Positions 7,917 to 24,501 of a stretch of 28,402 bases of DNA are shown piece by piece. Source of the DNA: a virus; IMG/VR virus record IMGVR_UViG_3300032287_002785, positions 1 to 28,402 of that record. One strand, written 5' to 3'. The translations under genes and the position numbers were made by a program. The notes under the pieces were generated by a model, which searched no databases, was not told where the DNA came from, and saw only the letters and a program-made list of their open reading frames with translations. Each line of letters begins with the position of its first letter. The stretch's first letter is position 1.

Positions 7917-8495
7917 CTAATCGTCCATTAACGGTCGAGTGTAATCGATTTCGTAGGTAGGCCGAACGGCATTGAGGAATCGATCCCAAACACTGTTGGA
8001 TACACCAATGGTAAATCTGTCTTCTTTGCCCATGGTCATTGTGCCGAACGTACTTGCGAATATCCCTCTTGGGGGCATTGCTCCACGAAGTTTGTATTTC
8101 CCAAACCATCTCAAGTCGTCTTGTATCCAGCCTTGCGATGTGCCACCATCGGCGGCCATCAATGCTTCAGGATTACTCGAGTGAGACGTTCCGTTTCCGA
8201 TATGGCCGAATTCGTGGACAGCTACCTTAGCGCACCGGCGGCGATCTAAGCCAAACCGGAACGTGGGTGAAATGAAAATTGTGTTTCCAGTCGTCCATGC
8301 GGCCCAATTGTTTCGGTTGACGTTCGACTGGATGACACGAACCTGACCGCCGGATCGCACTCTAGGCATCGACAATCGGAAATAGCGGCATGTGAGATCG
8401 AACGCCGGTTGAATGACATTGAAGTCATACGTGCTATTGTAGGCTCCATCCCTGAACAGAGTCGCTAAAGACCACGTTATGATCCTATCGCTCAT
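7917..8495 (-). CDS. Metzincin-like zinc protease with shared flanking domains
   Basis: This 192-residue protein carries H94-E-F-G-H98-I-G-N-G-T-S-H105 followed by E-A-L-M113. That suggests a matrixin/metzincin site: two His and the catalytic Glu on the helix, a third His, and a Met-turn. The third His is one residue farther than in the usual HExxHxxGxxH, so it is a variant. There is no signal peptide. Residues 1-45 and about 139-182 match the two halves of the 97-residue protein encoded at 18902-19195, which lacks the core between them. The GTG/ATG-type coupling is ATGA with the beta-rich structural gene upstream. I infer a virion-associated or host-surface protease. The protein substrate is unknown. 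The 82-base gap to the next gene shows nothing convincing. Confidence 0.65.
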   Translation of the reverse strand: MSDRIITWSLATLFRDGAYNSTYDFNVIQPAFDLTCRYFRLSMPRVRSGGQVRVIQSNVNRNNWAAWTTGNTIFISPTFRFGLDRRRCAKVAVHEFGHIGNGTSHSSNPEALMAADGGTSQGWIQDDLRWFGKYKLRGAMPPRGIFASTFGTMTMGKEDRFTIGVSNSVWDRFLNAVRPTYEIDYTRPLMDD

Positions 8496-11923: not shown

Positions 11924-13138
11924 TTAGAAACGATTCCTGGTTAAGTTCAAAATAGAGAAGCAACCGAAAGTCAGGTCGCAAGTATAAGCCCCACCCGCAA
12001 GACTTCGTGCTTCGATCCACACTTGAACCGCACCGCTTACCGTAAATCTTGCTTGAATTCCTATGACTGTCGGTTGATTCGTCTGCGTCAGGAAAAAACT
12101 GTTCTCTTGCGTATAGACTCGCATCAGGCAATTGCTCATGTTCGCTAGCGACATCAGCCCTGTTACGATAACTTCGTCACCAACTTCAAGCACACCAGGT
12201 GAAACCGATGCTTGGTGGTATAACTCCATCGTTGCTGATTGGCTTATTACTGCTAAAGCTCTATTTCCTCGAATCGGATGCGTACCTGTAGCAAGTGCTG
12301 AAAATGTTGGCAGAGAAAAACCAGCCCAACCGTCTGGCCTGTTGTTTGTATCCCCATCAGTTAGACAAAGTGGATTCGACAGTACGTTTGAATTTGTTCG
12401 AGGAACCCAATAGTTTGACTCGATACCTAACAACTGATCCGCAATCATTTTTCCTGCGGTATAGTAGGCTGCATTTGCTGGATGATCTCCATCAATTGAT
12501 GCACCAATAGACCATGTTCCATCGGTATCTGTTAGCTTTCCCCACGGATCGCAAAAGTACAATCCCTCGTCGATACACCACACGCGTTCAGCAACTGAGT
12601 AAGAGTCTATTAAGGCTGTTGTCGTGTCTCTTGGTGGTGATGCGATTACGATCGGTGTCACTCCGCGAGAAAGTAAAATAGCCACAGCAGCTTTCATGTT
12701 TGCGATGTGCGTTGCAACTGTAACTCCTGCTGCTGCGTCATTAGTCCCTTCCATCACCAAGCATGCTGTGCCCGCAGGTACGTTAGCTGCCTGTGCCGCC
12801 AGTGCTGAGCTTGATGCACCACCTACTCCAAAGTTTTTGTGCATCGGAACTCCAAGGAATCCGATAGCTGTGCGCGACAAACCCAAGCTGTTCTCAAACA
12901 AAGAATTACCGATTGATGAGACTGACTTCCATTGATTGACTGGTCTGCGTTTTACAACGGCATCAGCACCTATCAACGTCCTCATCCCAGCCGCATCCAC
13001 CCCGACAGGATTTGCAAGCACCCCGCTAGGATTCGCAAGCACCGTACCCGCTGCAATCGGCACCGCGTTACCCGCAGGCCCAGCAGGGCCGACAGTGCCA
13101 CCGAACTCGACTGTTATTTCACCTTCTACAAAGCTCAT
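11924..13138 (-). CDS. Tail fibre/tip protein with SGNH (GDSL-like) esterase domain
   Basis: This 404-residue protein starts with a short beta segment and a collagen-like G-P-A-G-P-A-G stretch (about 17-23), common in trimeric phage fibres. Residues about 70-232 carry the four SGNH blocks: S-I-G-N-S79-L, F-G-V-G-G-A-S (block II), M-E-G-T-N133-D (block III), and D216-G-D-H219 (block V). These give a Ser-Asp-His catalytic set for ester hydrolysis, typically deacetylation of surface polysaccharide. The C-terminal part (about 245-404) is beta-rich and may bind carbohydrate. There is no signal peptide. It overlaps the upstream gene as ATGA. The substrate is inferred, not known. Fibre esterases often modify host capsule or O-antigen during adsorption. 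Confidence 0.75.
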   Translation of the reverse strand: MSFVEGEITVEFGGTVGPAGPAGNAVPIAAGTVLANPSGVLANPVGVDAAGMRTLIGADAVVKRRPVNQWKSVSSIGNSLFENSLGLSRTAIGFLGVPMHKNFGVGGASSSALAAQAANVPAGTACLVMEGTNDAAAGVTVATHIANMKAAVAILLSRGVTPIVIASPPRDTTTALIDSYSVAERVWCIDEGLYFCDPWGKLTDTDGTWSIGASIDGDHPANAAYYTAGKMIADQLLGIESNYWVPRTNSNVLSNPLCLTDGDTNNRPDGWAGFSLPTFSALATGTHPIRGNRALAVISQSATMELYHQASVSPGVLEVGDEVIVTGLMSLANMSNCLMRVYTQENSFFLTQTNQPTVIGIQARFTVSGAVQVWIEARSLAGGAYTCDLTFGCFSILNLTRNRF

Positions 13139-19195: not shown

Positions 19196-19533
19196 TTCTT
19201 ATCGTCCTTGTGTGCGTACTTCGTACCGTTGACATCGATAAACGCAAGATTCGTCTCTAAGACTTCAATCTTGCCTCGCATCAACGCACACTCCGTTTTC
19301 AAATCACCCCGTTCCACTTCGCACTTGTCTGCTTTGGCGCTTATCGTTGCGACTTCGTTTTTCAGTCCTTCGATATGCTTTGCGTTCTCGTTCTCTCTCA
19401 ACTTAAAAAGCCAAGCTACGGTTGAAGTAAGAGTCGCAATTACTGACGCAATGCCTGCCAGCATCCATCCCGTGAGCGAGTTCTGTTCGACTGTCACTTG
19501 CAGCACAGCTTTCTGATTCTCTGGAGTAGACAT
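19192..19533 (-). CDS. Single-pass membrane coiled-coil protein (holin or inner-spanin candidate)
   Basis: I prefer the ATG at 19533 (113 residues, MSTPENQKA) over an earlier GTG at 19557. One hydrophobic segment (about residues 21-43, with W-M-L-A-G-I-A-S-V-I) is followed by a charged coiled coil (about 46-97, L-K-N-E-V-A-T-I-S-A-K). One membrane anchor plus a coiled coil fits an inner spanin or a simple class III-like holin, but similar proteins also occur in tails. It overlaps the end of the six-Cys secreted gene by 40 bases and the next gene by four. With the two secreted genes upstream it may form a lysis cluster. No endolysin is recognisable beside it. Confidence 0.5.
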   Translation of the reverse strand: MSTPENQKAVLQVTVEQNSLTGWMLAGIASVIATLTSTVAWLFKLRENENAKHIEGLKNEVATISAKADKCEVERGDLKTECALMRGKIEVLETNLAFIDVNGTKYAHKDDKK

Positions 19534-19724
19534 GCTCGCTTCGCTTTCACTTTGCACGCAACGTTTTCAGCCATAGCGTCCACGACATTGGCAGCGACAA
19601 CAACCGGAGCCACAGCAACCTTTCGAACAACGTCACAGCGTCCGTTCTGGCATTCGACTTCTTGCGAGTAGCTAAGCGTACTAAGCACGACCAAAGCGAT
19701 AAGAGTATTGATGATTTTCAGCAT
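19494..19724 (-). CDS. Small secreted six-cysteine cationic protein
   Basis: This 76-residue protein has a signal peptide (hydrophobic residues 4-18, likely cleavage after S-Y-S near residue 20) and no lipobox. The mature part has six cysteines (C25, C30, C57, C65, C74, C75) and a basic C-terminus with K-V-K-A-K-R-A-C. The C-Q-N-G-R-C motif resembles the C-x-N-G-x-C motif I recall in planctomycete secreted proteins, which is one hint at the host. The ATG overlaps the upstream stop as TAATG. The role is unknown. An envelope-active peptide, a disulfide-stabilised structural protein, or an outer-spanin-like partner of the downstream coiled coil are all possible. Confidence 0.55.
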   Translation of the reverse strand: MLKIINTLIALVVLSTLSYSQEVECQNGRCDVVRKVAVAPVVVAANVVDAMAENVACKVKAKRACLLQRIRKLCCK

Positions 19725-20422
19725 TATTCCAATCCTTTCACGATTGCGTCATAGGCTTCGAGGCCTTTCGTGACGCTGGTAATTTTCGAGTCTGAAATAA
19801 ACTTAGCGTTCGGCAGTCGCCAAACCTCTTCCCAATTTGCGTCTCTTGATTCACCTCGCGGTCGAGCTAGTAACACAGCTTCCATCGTGCCAATAAAGCG
19901 AGATTGTGCAGCCGCTAGTGTTGGACACTGATTCGAATCACATAGCGATTTAAGTTGTGCCACAACAGGCTTCAGCGATGCTAACAATGAAGCTCGCGTC
20001 TTCGGGTCGTTTAACGCCAGACTGTTCGCTCGGCTGATTTGTGTCAGCTTGGCAAAGTCGCCTGGTTGAGTGACTGGAGGCGGTTCAGGTTTCGGAGGGT
20101 TGACAACCGAATCACCAATCACCACCGTATGCTTGGCGTAGTCAATCGCTGCCGTCTTGTCGCTGACAATTAGGTAGAAGGTATAGCTGCCAGCTCGCGG
20201 AGTTGCAAAGAACACCTGCGAGTCAATCGCCGTGCATCCTGCTTGTGCCGTCGAGATTCCTTCCGGTGTAATCCACTTGTGATTATCCCCTTTCGATTTG
20301 CTAGAGTTAAGCACCACCAGTTCTCCTGGCAGTGCTTTATCTGGTGCAACAATAATCGCTTCGACCTGCGCGAACGCGATCGAACAAAACGACCATATTG
20401 CTAAAGTCAAAAAGGGTTTCAT
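19724..20422 (-). CDS. Secreted PKD-like protein
   Basis: This 232-residue protein has a signal peptide (M-K-P-F-L-T-L-A-I-W-S-F-C-S-I-A-F-A, cleavage after residue 18). Residues about 20-107 look like a PKD/Ig-like beta domain: A-P-D-K-A-L-P-G-E-L-V-V-L-N-S-S, K-W-I-T-P-E-G, and A-G-S-Y-T-F-Y-L-I-V-S-D. A Pro-rich hinge (about 110-121) leads to a helical C-terminal part. PKD domains mediate extracellular binding. A phage gene for an exported host-envelope protein is notable. It could be a lysis-related or superinfection protein, or a moron. It is coupled by TAATG to the small six-Cys gene. Confidence 0.6.
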   Translation of the reverse strand: MKPFLTLAIWSFCSIAFAQVEAIIVAPDKALPGELVVLNSSKSKGDNHKWITPEGISTAQAGCTAIDSQVFFATPRAGSYTFYLIVSDKTAAIDYAKHTVVIGDSVVNPPKPEPPPVTQPGDFAKLTQISRANSLALNDPKTRASLLASLKPVVAQLKSLCDSNQCPTLAAAQSRFIGTMEAVLLARPRGESRDANWEEVWRLPNAKFISDSKITSVTKGLEAYDAIVKGLE

Positions 20423-20430
20423 AGTGATTA

Positions 20431-21108
20431 CTAAACCTTCGTGTTTTCACCAGAAGCTGGAACTGTCGAAGGAGTGTCTGGAGAATCCTTACTTGGTGTT
20501 CCAACTGAATTAGGAGATGGCTCAGAAATTTGAGCTTCATGCAAATTCAAAGGAGGAACAACCACACCAAGATGCTCGTGAGCAGGAATCGAAATTCCAA
20601 CATTCAACTCTGTTCCGTTACCAACGTAGGTCAGCAACAACTCTTCGACATAAAGCATGTGCTCTTCAAATCGTGTAATGTCTCGGTCACCGATTCCGTA
20701 TTGAAGTTTTGCGGAATCAGAAAACAAAATCTTTTGCATCAAAGTCGAAAGAGCTGTGATAACTCGACGGCACTTGACGTTGCCAGTCCTGAGTTGTTCG
20801 TTGTCTGTGATTGCCAATACAGTCAAGAGTTTTTCTTGTGCTGCGGGTGCCAGGTTACGATACTTCTTAGCCAAATCCCATTCCAGCTTGGCACGAGTCC
20901 AATCGGAGTTGATAGCTTCTGAATCAGCAACAACCATTTGACCCGTGGAGTTGTTGCTATCCATCTCCAAGATAGCCATTTGCAGTCTTGAAACCACATA
21001 GCAAAACTGTTGCAAATGTTGGTTGTTCAATTGCCACTTATGAACGGCAATTTTTTCGCCACCGATGACGACTTGTTCTTGTAAACTAAGTTCAGTAATC
21101 ATTCCCAC
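20431..21108 (-). CDS. Hypothetical protein, helical with a Pro/Ser-rich tail
   Basis: The frame starts at a GTG at 21108 with AAAGGTG six bases upstream; an ATG at 21102 is the alternative. It gives 225 residues. An N-terminal part (M-I-T-E-L-S-L-Q-E-Q) leads into a long helical domain (about 25-150, with M-Q-K-I-L-F and F-E-E-H-M-L-Y-V-E-E-L). The C-terminal 45 residues are rich in Pro, Ser and Thr and probably disordered. There is no signal peptide or membrane segment. I recognise no family. It lies between the subtilase and the secreted PKD-like gene. Confidence 0.55.
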   Translation of the reverse strand: MGMITELSLQEQVVIGGEKIAVHKWQLNNQHLQQFCYVVSRLQMAILEMDSNNSTGQMVVADSEAINSDWTRAKLEWDLAKKYRNLAPAAQEKLLTVLAITDNEQLRTGNVKCRRVITALSTLMQKILFSDSAKLQYGIGDRDITRFEEHMLYVEELLLTYVGNGTELNVGISIPAHEHLGVVVPPLNLHEAQISEPSPNSVGTPSKDSPDTPSTVPASGENTKV

Positions 21109-21134: not shown

Positions 21135-22052
21135 TTAAGCCAGTAACAGTTCCGACCGCAGCAGCGATTGGAGTAACGAGTCAGCGACAGGAATGCCGTG
21201 ACCAAATCTAGGATCAAAACCAGGTGCACCAGCGTCCTTCAGATTCGCTTTGAAGAACGCTCTTACCGCGTCAGTAGCTTTCCACTGTGGCTTACCCTGC
21301 CGACGCATCACCTCGACGATGCACGCAAGTAGACCGCTGCCAAACGGAGTTGCCATCGATGTACCACTCATCGAAGTGTAGCCGCTACCATTCTTTGAAA
21401 ACGAGATGATGTCTTGCCCAGGACAAGCCCAGTCAAGTTCCTTCCCACCCGAAGAGAAGTTCGCAATCTGACCACTTGCTTGATACGCACCGCAGCATAG
21501 ACAACCGTTGTATCGTGCAGGCCAACCAATCGTGTTTGAACCGTTGTAGCCAGCATTGCCTGCCGCCGCGTTCACGATGCAACCGAGGCTAAATGCGTAG
21601 TCGATTGCTCGATTCGTTTCGTTATCCGAACCACCACCACCGAGAGACAGACTAATGATGTCCGCACCTTGCTCCGCTGCCCAACGAATACCGTTTGCGA
21701 TGCCAGTCGATGAACCGCTACCCTGGTCGCTTAGGCACTTAAAGACAATCAACTCAGCATCAGGAGCGACACCGATTCCATTGCGTCCCAATGCCGTTCC
21801 TGCACAGTGAGTGCCATGTCCATTTCCATCACGCTCAGCAGACTGACCGCTGATGAACGACTTAGCCGCAATCGGGACAGGACCGTCTACGTGCTTGGTG
21901 TAGCCTGTGTCTCCGATGGCAATCTTGATTGATTTACCTGTCGCAATCTTACCGACTCGCTCGGCCAATTCTGCCGTCCAGTGCCATAGCCGAGGAGCCA
22001 TCGCATAGAGATCGTTGTTGTAGATCGTGTCGTCTGGAATGTGGTAATCCAC
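21135..22052 (-). CDS. Subtilisin-like serine protease (family S8)
   Basis: This 305-residue protein has a complete S8 catalytic set: D48 in I-G-D-T-G, H79 in G-N-G-H-G-T-H-C-A-G, oxyanion N166 in A-A-A-G-N-A-G, and S232 in S-G-T-S-M-A-T-P. It lacks both a signal peptide and a long propeptide, so it is likely made in the cytoplasm. The start is a GTG at 22052 with AGGGA upstream. It follows the unknown 194-residue gene by one base. It has six cysteines (three clustered, C-L-C-C, near residue 184). Subtilases in phages are uncommon. It might process virion proteins, degrade host protein, or act on the envelope after lysis begins. The role is inferred only. Confidence 0.85.
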   Translation of the reverse strand: MDYHIPDDTIYNNDLYAMAPRLWHWTAELAERVGKIATGKSIKIAIGDTGYTKHVDGPVPIAAKSFISGQSAERDGNGHGTHCAGTALGRNGIGVAPDAELIVFKCLSDQGSGSSTGIANGIRWAAEQGADIISLSLGGGGSDNETNRAIDYAFSLGCIVNAAAGNAGYNGSNTIGWPARYNGCLCCGAYQASGQIANFSSGGKELDWACPGQDIISFSKNGSGYTSMSGTSMATPFGSGLLACIVEVMRRQGKPQWKATDAVRAFFKANLKDAGAPGFDPRFGHGIPVADSLLQSLLRSELLLA

Positions 22053-22053
22053 G

Positions 22054-22638
22054 TTAGTTCCCTTGTCGCGCTAACCAAAGCGCAAGGAGCTTCATAACGA
22101 TTGGAATCCAAATCGAAGGGCTAAGTGCCACAGCTTGCGAGTCCTCAACCGTGAGCACATCAAGAGCGAGCAAACAACCATCCATCGTCGAAGGAAGCTC
22201 ATCCGACTGAAGAGTCACCATGAACCCACTTTCGATGAGAGCGGAGGCTTCACCAAGTGCCGATGCCGCTTCTCTTCCGTTTTTTACGAAACTGAAATCG
22301 CCAGCCCGGAAATTCTTTACCAACGCAACAACATGATCAAGCGGTATGCGTGCTTCAAAATCATAACTAGCCATAACATTAACCTCAGAAATGAGAACGA
22401 CGGGTTCGGACAGATCGTCCAGAAAGTTTTGCTTGATCGGCTCCGAAACACCCTTCGCCAACCACAAATCCCGAAGCTGAACCGCTCGAGCGAGAAGCTC
22501 GCCCTGAATCCGCCCGTTCAAATCAGCAAAACGGGGGTCTAGCCGCACTCTAGACGAAAATCCGTCCAGAGTCCCATCCGAGTCGTAGGAGTCGGCAGCG
22601 AGGCGATGGCAAAGCTGTAACGCGGTGGGGTCAAGCAT
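22054..22638 (-). CDS. Hypothetical protein upstream of the subtilase
   Basis: This 194-residue protein begins MLDPTALQLCHRLAADSY. Its ribosome site is poor (an A run before the ATG), so the true start might be internal, for example near M-A-S-Y-D-F. The middle part (E-A-R-I-P-L-D-H-V-V-A-L-V-K-N) looks like a small globular domain. The last 18 residues (I-W-I-P-I-V-M-K-L-L-A-L-W-L-A) are hydrophobic and could anchor in the membrane. It is placed one base before the subtilase start, which suggests coupling and a possible partnership, for example as inhibitor, chaperone or membrane anchor. I recognise no family. Confidence 0.55.
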   Translation of the reverse strand: MLDPTALQLCHRLAADSYDSDGTLDGFSSRVRLDPRFADLNGRIQGELLARAVQLRDLWLAKGVSEPIKQNFLDDLSEPVVLISEVNVMASYDFEARIPLDHVVALVKNFRAGDFSFVKNGREAASALGEASALIESGFMVTLQSDELPSTMDGCLLALDVLTVEDSQAVALSPSIWIPIVMKLLALWLARQGN

Positions 22639-23153: not shown

Positions 23154-23668
23154 ACCACCTCCCGTATCTCGACATCGACTCTTTCATGCTCCGTCGTCCA
23201 TCGCCGTTCGATGAGCTTGTACCGAAACACTTGCTTGTCATCCTGCCATGCGATTCCAGTCAACGCATCTTCAAGACATCGCACTAGCTTTGCTAGATCG
23301 GGCGATTGTGCGTGATGTTTAGGTGATGATGATTTCACCACGTTGGCATTCGAACCGCTGCCATAGTGCGATTGTGGACGTTTGAACCAGAAGATTATTG
23401 ATAGTTCGATTGGATTCGTAAGCATCTTGAAGGATTGTTGATCCATCGCGAGCAACGCAACCGATTTTACTTCTTGCATGTACGACAAAGATTTTGGATT
23501 ATCATCTTTCGCAAACGTTAGTACTCTCCCATTCTTCGTGATTGGTTGGCCTTGGTTGTTGTACCGCACTAAAGCCTGCTTGCTTCCACGTTGCTGACCG
23601 CGACCGAGGACAGTGAACCGCAATGCTCGATCGACTTGTGTCGTTGGTTCGAATAGGAAATCGTTCAT
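23150..23668 (-). CDS. RusA-like Holliday junction resolvase
   Basis: The start is the ATG at 23668 (172 residues), because it overlaps the previous stop as ATGA. A longer frame to 23842 only shadows the neighbouring gene. The RusA family pattern is present: an N-terminal R-F-T-V-L-G beta strand, a basic middle segment, and S-P-D124-L-A-K-L-V-R then L-E-D134-A-L-T-G, W-Q-D143-D-K-Q-V. The Asp residues would bind the metal. RusA cuts four-way junctions made during recombination and replication. It is longer than classic RusA (about 120) because of an N-terminal extension and a loop around residues 95-115. It sits with the replication gene and the RecT/YqaJ pair. Confidence 0.75.
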   Translation of the reverse strand: MNDFLFEPTTQVDRALRFTVLGRGQQRGSKQALVRYNNQGQPITKNGRVLTFAKDDNPKSLSYMQEVKSVALLAMDQQSFKMLTNPIELSIIFWFKRPQSHYGSGSNANVVKSSSPKHHAQSPDLAKLVRCLEDALTGIAWQDDKQVFRYKLIERRWTTEHERVDVEIREVV

Positions 23669-24501
23669 GCGACTGCGCTCTCCTCGATCGTAACAGACTT
23701 CGGTGTGGGGGCTGGCACCGGAGGGACTAGCTTCCGAAGTTTGTCCCAACTCTCGCCGTTCGACTCGCAAACCTTTCTCACGATCGCTTTCAAGTACGAT
23801 TCCGGCCTCGAGACTTCGCCTGGTTGCTTGAGTCGATCGCATGCATCGTCCACCGAGTCACGATCGAACTCAACGCCGATCCAGCACGCCTGCCAAACGA
23901 GCTCCCGATCGAGCTTGACTTTCAGCCTAGCGAACCGATTGGCGGATTCCACCACCCGATCAACAAAACTTTTTTCAACAACACCCACCGACCAACAAAC
24001 CGACCAATCGCGGGTTGGGTTGGGTTGGGTGTGGTTGGGTTGGAATTGGTTGGGTTGGGTTGGGTTGGGTTGGGTTGGGTTGGGTTGGGTTGGGTTAGGC
24101 AACGATTTTCCAGGAATGTCCTGGACAGTCGCGGACAATGGCGGACATTCACCGGACAGATTAGAAATCCCTGTGTTTTTTGAACGCTCGGCACGCTTGC
24201 GGACACGGTCCGACAAGTAGTCAGGTCGATGATCTTCCCAGTCATGTATCGACAGCGTCTGGTCGTTGCGGTCGAGCCATCGACACGCTATCAGAGCCTC
24301 CACAAGCTGTTTTTCATCCCCTTCCCATCCTGCGTAATCAGCGATTTCTTGATTCGAAAATCGCGACAAGTCTCCATCTTCAGCGAACTGCGCGGCTAGC
24401 ATCCACAACGATTCCAATAGCCCGACGACAGCGTAAGAAGGTAGTCCTAACTCACGTTGTAGCCGTCGGAATTTTGGATGTGTTGTTGTGCCAATCTTCA
24501 T
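23665..24501 (-). CDS. Replication initiator or helicase-loader-like protein with NPTQP repeat linker
   Basis: This 278-residue protein begins MKIGTTTHPKFRRLQRELGL. The N-terminal 105 residues (Y-A-V-V-G-L-L-E-S-L-W, F-S-N-Q-E-I-A-D-Y-A-G-W, L-I-A-C-R-W-L-D) form a winged-helix domain like phage replisome organisers and DnaD-type loaders. A repeat linker (about 135-163) reads NPTQP three times, then NQFQP, NHTQP and NPTR. The C-terminal domain (about 175-265) contains S-Y-L-K-A-I-V-R-K, a helix typical of the DnaD-like tail. It would bind the phage origin and load the helicase. AAGGAAGG precedes the ATG. The linker is encoded by a pentanucleotide repeat, so a change of repeat number not divisible by three would break the frame. 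Confidence 0.6.
   Translation of the reverse strand: MKIGTTTHPKFRRLQRELGLPSYAVVGLLESLWMLAAQFAEDGDLSRFSNQEIADYAGWEGDEKQLVEALIACRWLDRNDQTLSIHDWEDHRPDYLSDRVRKRAERSKNTGISNLSGECPPLSATVQDIPGKSLPNPTQPNPTQPNPTQPNQFQPNHTQPNPTRDWSVCWSVGVVEKSFVDRVVESANRFARLKVKLDRELVWQACWIGVEFDRDSVDDACDRLKQPGEVSRPESYLKAIVRKVCESNGESWDKLRKLVPPVPAPTPKSVTIEESAVA
24012..24094 (+). repeat. (TTGGG)n telomere-like repeat inside the replication gene
   Basis: On the plus strand TTGGG repeats run from about 24012 to 24094. Nine GGG tracts are perfectly spaced every five bases (24052 to 24094), with four more at 24012-24029 and one at 24036. The unit encodes N-P-T-Q-P when read in three-unit periods on the minus strand. GGG tracts two bases apart are a strong G-quadruplex motif on the strand opposite the mRNA sense. 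A five-base unit can slip and shift the frame. Confidence 0.9.

Follow-up and report, generated by a model that had tools for sequence, protein, structure and literature searches.

The window analysed here is the whole of a virus contig from IMG/VR, 28,402 bp long, and contains on its minus strand a gene for a leaderless subtilase (B), accompanied by a small helical protein (A), an exported protein (C) and a protein with a single hydrophobic segment (D). The features to which we refer are the following.

21135..22052, minus strand: B, leaderless S8 subtilase, GTG start, 305 aa; Pfam PF00082 (Peptidase_S8), E 8.5e-44
22029..22040, minus strand: IPDD motif, residues 5–8 of the N-terminal extension of B, which is like that of the intracellular subtilisins (ISPs); 43 residues before the catalytic D48
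22054..22374, minus strand: A, probable true coupled gene, 106 aa, predicted to form four helices, of which the C-terminal one, PSIWIPIVMKLLALWLARQGN, is hydrophobic
22375..22638, minus strand: in-frame upstream extension of the A open reading frame, for which no homolog was found; probably untranslated as part of A
20431..21108, minus strand: 225-aa gene separating B from C, confined to the closest relatives (L002, L007, L008)
19724..20422, minus strand: C, with signal peptide, PKD-like domain, Pro-rich linker and helical domain; family C, 52 matches
19494..19724, minus strand: 76-aa protein with a signal-peptide-like N-terminus, conserved in L002–L008
19192..19533, minus strand: D, 113 aa, one hydrophobic segment and a coiled-coil-like tail, conserved in L002–L008
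18902..19195, minus strand: paralog of 7917..8495 that, by alignment, is without the metal-binding core
7917..8495, minus strand: metzincin-like protein with HEFGHIGNGTSH, perhaps another protease of the phage; Pfam M10, E 3.2e-4, just below the curated cut-off

The Pfam match of B spans its full length, and comparison with the PHROG protease family phrog_3677 gave an E value of 4.8e-53. The Asp-His-Ser triad and the oxyanion Asn are present within S8 motifs, and D48, H79, N166 and S232 are unchanged across the nine phage homologs aligned, which bears out the complete catalytic set described in a previous sequence-only reading of this DNA. That reading had also reported the absence of an export signal and a location next to replication genes, and both descriptions hold: on inspection the N-terminus of B is charged or polar with no signal peptide seen, and the gene has RecE/RecT, RusA and a replication initiation protein to one side of it and, to the other, tail-like genes together with terminase and head genes. 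The dN/dS of B against close relatives is 0.05–0.09, i.e., the gene is under purifying selection. We also considered whether B could belong to the host, at the border of a prophage and without conservation among phages, and rejected this because the DNA is from a virus contig and many other viral contigs have kept the gene. B is a real gene and a member of the known S8 family, with an architecture like that of the intracellular subtilisins. Two other genes of the window deserve mention. The replication initiation protein (23665-24501) carries a tandem PNPTQPNPTQ repeat that on the other strand reads GLGWVGLGWV, and a tail-region protein (11924-13138) carries a GDSL lipase/acylhydrolase domain.

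The ISPs of Bacillus and Planococcus (PDB 2wv7, 2x8j, 6f9m, 7xr8) are, like B, leaderless enzymes with the S8 triad and a short N-terminal extension, in which a Pro-containing motif precedes the catalytic Asp by almost as many residues as in B. In the Planococcus ISP the LIPY/F propeptide motif corresponds to residues 6–9 and the catalytic residue is Asp49 (PMC6220982). Among the phage proteins, a [LIV]P[PD][DFY] motif was detected in 24 of 27 members of the subtilase family, 43–48 (usually 43) residues ahead of the catalytic Asp. The spacing matches and the motif resembles LIPY/F, yet it is not LIPY/F itself but IPPD, LPPD or IPDF. Besides, subtilases of the large phages show profile similarity to ISPs, and one of them aligns with ISP chains from near their N-terminus (7xr8). 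The statement of the sequence-only reading that there is no clear propeptide was therefore not quite right, and this short conserved extension is an ISP-like propeptide candidate that, by analogy with the cellular enzymes, may inhibit the phage protease. Inhibition by the extension is, unlike in the ISPs, only predicted, and B differs from them also in being phage-borne and in an operon with A and C. The S8 proteases of Bacillus phages (SP-15, Goe3 group) and of Moorella phage MTATph1 are 31–39% identical to B, but their genomic setting is another one and A, C and D were not seen among their neighbours.

B had been described as coupled to a gene with a hydrophobic C-terminus that extended over 22054-22638. 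The coupling and the hydrophobic end stand, A and B being translationally coupled in the window group, but not the extent of the gene. Homologs of the longer open reading frame align solely from residue 83–89 onward, the A genes of the relatives start where this homology begins, and a GAGG is found 5' of the ATG at 22374 and none 5' of the ATG at 22638, so that the coupled gene is probably 22054-22374, with 106 aa rather than 194. The AF2 model of A (pLDDT 75.7) consists of four helices, the last of them hydrophobic, with no significant fold match in the PDB. We had considered the label amphipathic for this C-terminal helix, and dropped it in favour of hydrophobic because its amphipathic character exceeds chance in one subgroup only. 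Profile-profile comparisons between A subgroups gave moderate E values of 9.5e-5 and 2.6e-5, the second one mainly over the C-terminal helix. The dN/dS of A and C is 0.05–0.22.

The AF2 model of C (pLDDT 86), a secreted protein by its signal peptide, matches the PKD domain of collagenase G (7.3e-5) and consists of a PKD-like domain and a helix bundle. Between C subgroups, profile comparison gave a moderate E value of 1.3e-5 over the C-terminal part. D is holin- or spanin-like by its mere shape. D-type transmembrane (TM) and coiled-coil proteins are located near B in the window and in many relatives; they fall outside the known holin families, and no holin or spanin family was recognised in the module. 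The metzincin-like gene does not adjoin the module, and its paralog keeps both ends of the protein, the metal-binding core being gone.

Our scans of viral contigs retrieved ten relevant contigs to begin with and later about 55, and about 45 of these IMG/VR contigs have leaderless subtilases with 41–97% identity in a shared setting. Iterated profile searches over the 1,718 proteins called from the subtilase loci revealed the families A (43 matches) and C (52 matches), which within these locus proteins appear solely near the subtilase. The pair of A and subtilase noticed in the window recurs in other phages, A being located at −1 from the subtilase in 20 loci, at +1 in 11 and at +2 in 8 (39 of 39). 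C is downstream in 45 of 50 cases (+1 in 15, +2 in 19 and +3 in 11), and in the other five, the largest phages, it is found at −5/−6. The phages bearing the module range from about 45 to 190 kb and their gene order varies. As the partners are constant while their order changes, common descent of a fixed block is unlikely to be the only reason for the association. Families A and C, together with the module, appear to be undescribed in the open-access papers and libraries that we searched. Two of the module-bearing phages also contain open reading frames of at least about 3,700–4,000 aa (L220 3-11129 and L226 2-12061), and a Pfam match to the Erv1/Alr sulfhydryl oxidases (1e-10) was found in the phage proteome G018 (L230-L232).

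Subtilases are not the only proteases found beside C. In phages of 101–190 kb, another protease, which has the motif Q-GDC...H...NSW, comes after C, and its profile matches the cathepsins weakly (1.4e-4) over the His and Asn region; no Pfam family was given for this papain-like protease. When it was used alone to search the viral contigs, 79 loci were retrieved, and 67 of them have a C homolog, either adjoining or at a distance of one or two genes; A and the subtilase are present as well in five of the 67. A matrixin with a peptidoglycan (PG)-binding domain adjoins C in three further C loci, and searching the viral contigs with a narrower C alignment turned up no more than a few loci that lack a subtilase. 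The protease partners of C therefore belong to three unrelated clans, an indication that proteolysis is the activity that the module requires. Some of these loci have peculiarities of their own. A LAGLIDADG homing-endonuclease-like domain is found inside the papain-like protease open reading frame in L310 (5812-7836). In L244 (2182-4588) the C homolog lies between a 209-aa protein of no familiar family and the matrixin, which has, together with its PG-binding domain, a PRCGCPD cysteine-switch-like motif.

The cellular genomes offer an indication about the host. The papain-like protease profile found matches in 12 of 392 Planctomycetota genomes versus 0 of 398 Pseudomonadota, and in at least 6 of the 12 (G323, G234, G379, G373, G161 and G361) the gene is near terminase, portal, capsid or tail genes. 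C could be recognised beside it in G323 (1.7e-8), G413 (3.4e-6) and a second locus of G361 (6.4e-6). The C profile by itself retrieved from the Planctomycetota genomes one clear prophage match (G323), the rest being weak or restricted to the PKD domain. In another member of the phylum, G409, a TM/coiled-coil gene and a leaderless subtilase are found upstream of terminase, portal and capsid genes, in a locus that prmC and prfA flank. The A-like gene beside this subtilase was the best in the list with a non-significant E value of 0.066. In G379 a related cluster of terminase, portal and capsid genes is found, the papain-like protease being located in that general region. A Gemmataceae MAG contig (L020) codes for a full-length relative of the subtilase, and chromosomal leaderless subtilases occur in Planctomycetota; the first scan of genome contigs retrieved mostly ordinary secreted subtilisins. 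Judging from the module, the window phage probably infects Planctomycetota; the other genes of the window found no match in the planctomycete prophages examined.

Planctomycete sacculi are made of lysozyme-sensitive peptidoglycan (PMC4432640), and for this reason a PG hydrolase would be expected in their phages. We searched all 40 module-bearing viral records (the window and 39 relatives) for four families, Amidase_2, Phage_lysozyme, SLT and NLPC_P60, and found them in 0 of 40, with the control genomes positive each time, a count that includes contigs most of which may be incomplete and four records without detected C (shown in 35 of the 39 viral records searched with its profile). Amidase_2 was present in 7 of 16 viral records that have a subtilase match without the module (Fisher p 5e-5 versus 0 of 40), a p value that overstates independence, as the 16 controls are a convenience set including several related Firmicutes prophages. 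A near-complete relative of 53 kb carries polymerase, ligase, helicase, terminase, portal, capsid and tape measure genes, and among its 61 proteins Pfam detected no PG hydrolase, only an M10 (matrixin) protein and the subtilase. Similarly, none was found in a relative of 70 kb and two prophages among the 25 families listed for them. A divergent PG hydrolase may have escaped the search, and missing known lysin families are not the same as a missing lysin function. Either an unrecognised lysin is also present or the loss of envelope proteins suffices for lysis.

The endolysins of phages, as usually described, hydrolyse peptidoglycan. The module resembles the phage lysis cassettes (holin, endolysin and spanins) in that a leaderless hydrolase is found beside an exported protein in the lysis/tail region, often with a small TM/coiled-coil protein close by. 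It differs from them in that the hydrolase is a protease, B containing an S8 domain only and no PG-hydrolysing domain, and in the absence of a recognised holin or spanin family. We propose that the module is a variant of the phage lysis cassette, with a predicted lytic function. The leaderless enzyme, the exported helper, the frequent small membrane protein, the lysis/tail position and the absence of the common lysins make it somewhat probable that B is the lytic enzyme, or one of several, in a lysis-like module of phages that probably infect Planctomycetota. In Moorella and Bacillus phages similar subtilases are found without a module of this kind around them, which counts against this proposal. 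Of the three roles that had been suggested for B, release at lysis as a protein active on the envelope has the best support, from the conserved module with its secreted C, the frequent TM protein, the swapped protease clans and the missing lysins.

By comparison we infer that the module is lytic, that D or A acts as a holin and that B is controlled as a zymogen, and likewise its substrate and the window phage's host; the mechanism would be as follows. B would be synthesized in the cytoplasm without export signal, like the canonical endolysins, and would be kept inactive by its ISP-type N-terminal extension, perhaps also by the co-translated helical A. D, or the hydrophobic helix of A, would permeabilise the inner membrane, and B would then reach the periplasm, where its activation could take place through calcium as in the ISPs. 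Once active, it would break down envelope proteins, and the exported C, with its PKD and helical domains, would assist at the envelope, e.g., as a spanin-like or substrate-binding factor. The protease would in this way replace, or help, a PG endolysin.

Other explanations have to be weighed against lysis. B could be a virion-associated protease, packaged or tail-bound, that trims host surface proteins during adsorption or entry. Its module adjoins tail-fibre-like genes in the window and is found amid baseplate and tail genes in the phages of 100–190 kb, as a virion role would also predict. But the constant partner C has a signal peptide, needless for a virion protein, the proteases are leaderless and zymogen-like, and their order relative to the structural genes is inconstant, so that we regard this explanation as unlikely. 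The same lack of a signal peptide, together with the ISP-like extension, would suit an intracellular protease of host takeover, with host regulators or defence proteins as its substrates, as the ISPs of Bacillus act in the cytoplasm. The ISP-like proteases of Moorella and Bacillus phages are located near replication or unassigned genes, and the leaderless subtilases on Planctomycetota chromosomes would also be consistent with such a role. However, a takeover protease leaves unexplained why the link to the secreted C is so tight, why proteases of three clans go with C and why the lysins are missing, and we give it a small chance.

In bacterial gasdermin systems a small partner gene adjoins the protease gene. 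The logic of these protease-activated proteins could be extended to the module as a two-component toxin, or abortive or superinfection system, in which B would cleave A and free its hydrophobic helix as a membrane-damaging peptide. The location of A within two genes of B, its hydrophobic C-terminal helix and the translational coupling in the window group would fit. Unlike the gasdermin partners, A is a helical protein of about 106 aa, without detected sequence or fold relation to them, and C is also present. A was not found in any PADLOC family, and PADLOC gave only a generic subtilase match, on which account we rejected a known defence system. The hydrophobic helix is moreover the terminal end of A and not an internal masked segment, and the module is located in regions that are clearly phage backbone, all of which makes a toxin very unlikely. 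Proteases also serve in phage prohead maturation, but a role of B in the maturation of head or tail proteins, one of those suggested in the sequence-only reading, is hardly credible, as in a near-complete module-bearing relative other proteins match the families of head maturation proteases, the module is generally unlinked to head genes and B is tied to secreted proteins.

The planctomycete cell wall has long been disputed, with proteinaceous and peptidoglycan models opposed, and a lysis-like module with proteases bears on this dispute and supplies enzymes that might act on the planctomycete envelope. Returning to the reading of the module as a lysis cassette, we tentatively suggest, as a possibility that we still consider doubtful, that the phages of Planctomycetota as a guild may lyse their hosts by a modular protease cassette instead of a PG endolysin. 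The cassette would comprise an exported PKD/helical protein or lipoprotein, a small membrane protein and whichever protease is available (S8 with A, papain-like or matrixin). If this were true, protein, beside peptidoglycan, would hold the planctomycete envelope together. An entire set of phages in which proteases are exchanged in a lysis-like module and no PG lysin is recognised would mean a different way of opening bacteria. In the open-access literature that we searched, lysis by means of proteases is not reported for any planctomycete phage. As a marker, the module could help to assign orphan metagenomic phages to Planctomycetota hosts.

Finally, a compact terminase-portal-capsid-tail cluster of ~17 kb was found on Planctomycetota chromosomes (L210 3831-14000, L229 1-6997, L342, L343 and L344). 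It contains a protease module, no integrase was seen in the genes examined, and in G409 it is flanked by the housekeeping genes prmC/prfA. This cluster is a candidate gene-transfer agent (GTA) or domesticated prophage. In L339 the papain-like protease module is parted from the head genes by cellular genes, and in L340 recognised phage genes are absent within about 10 kb of it, layouts that are as expected for dispersed clusters of the GTA type.
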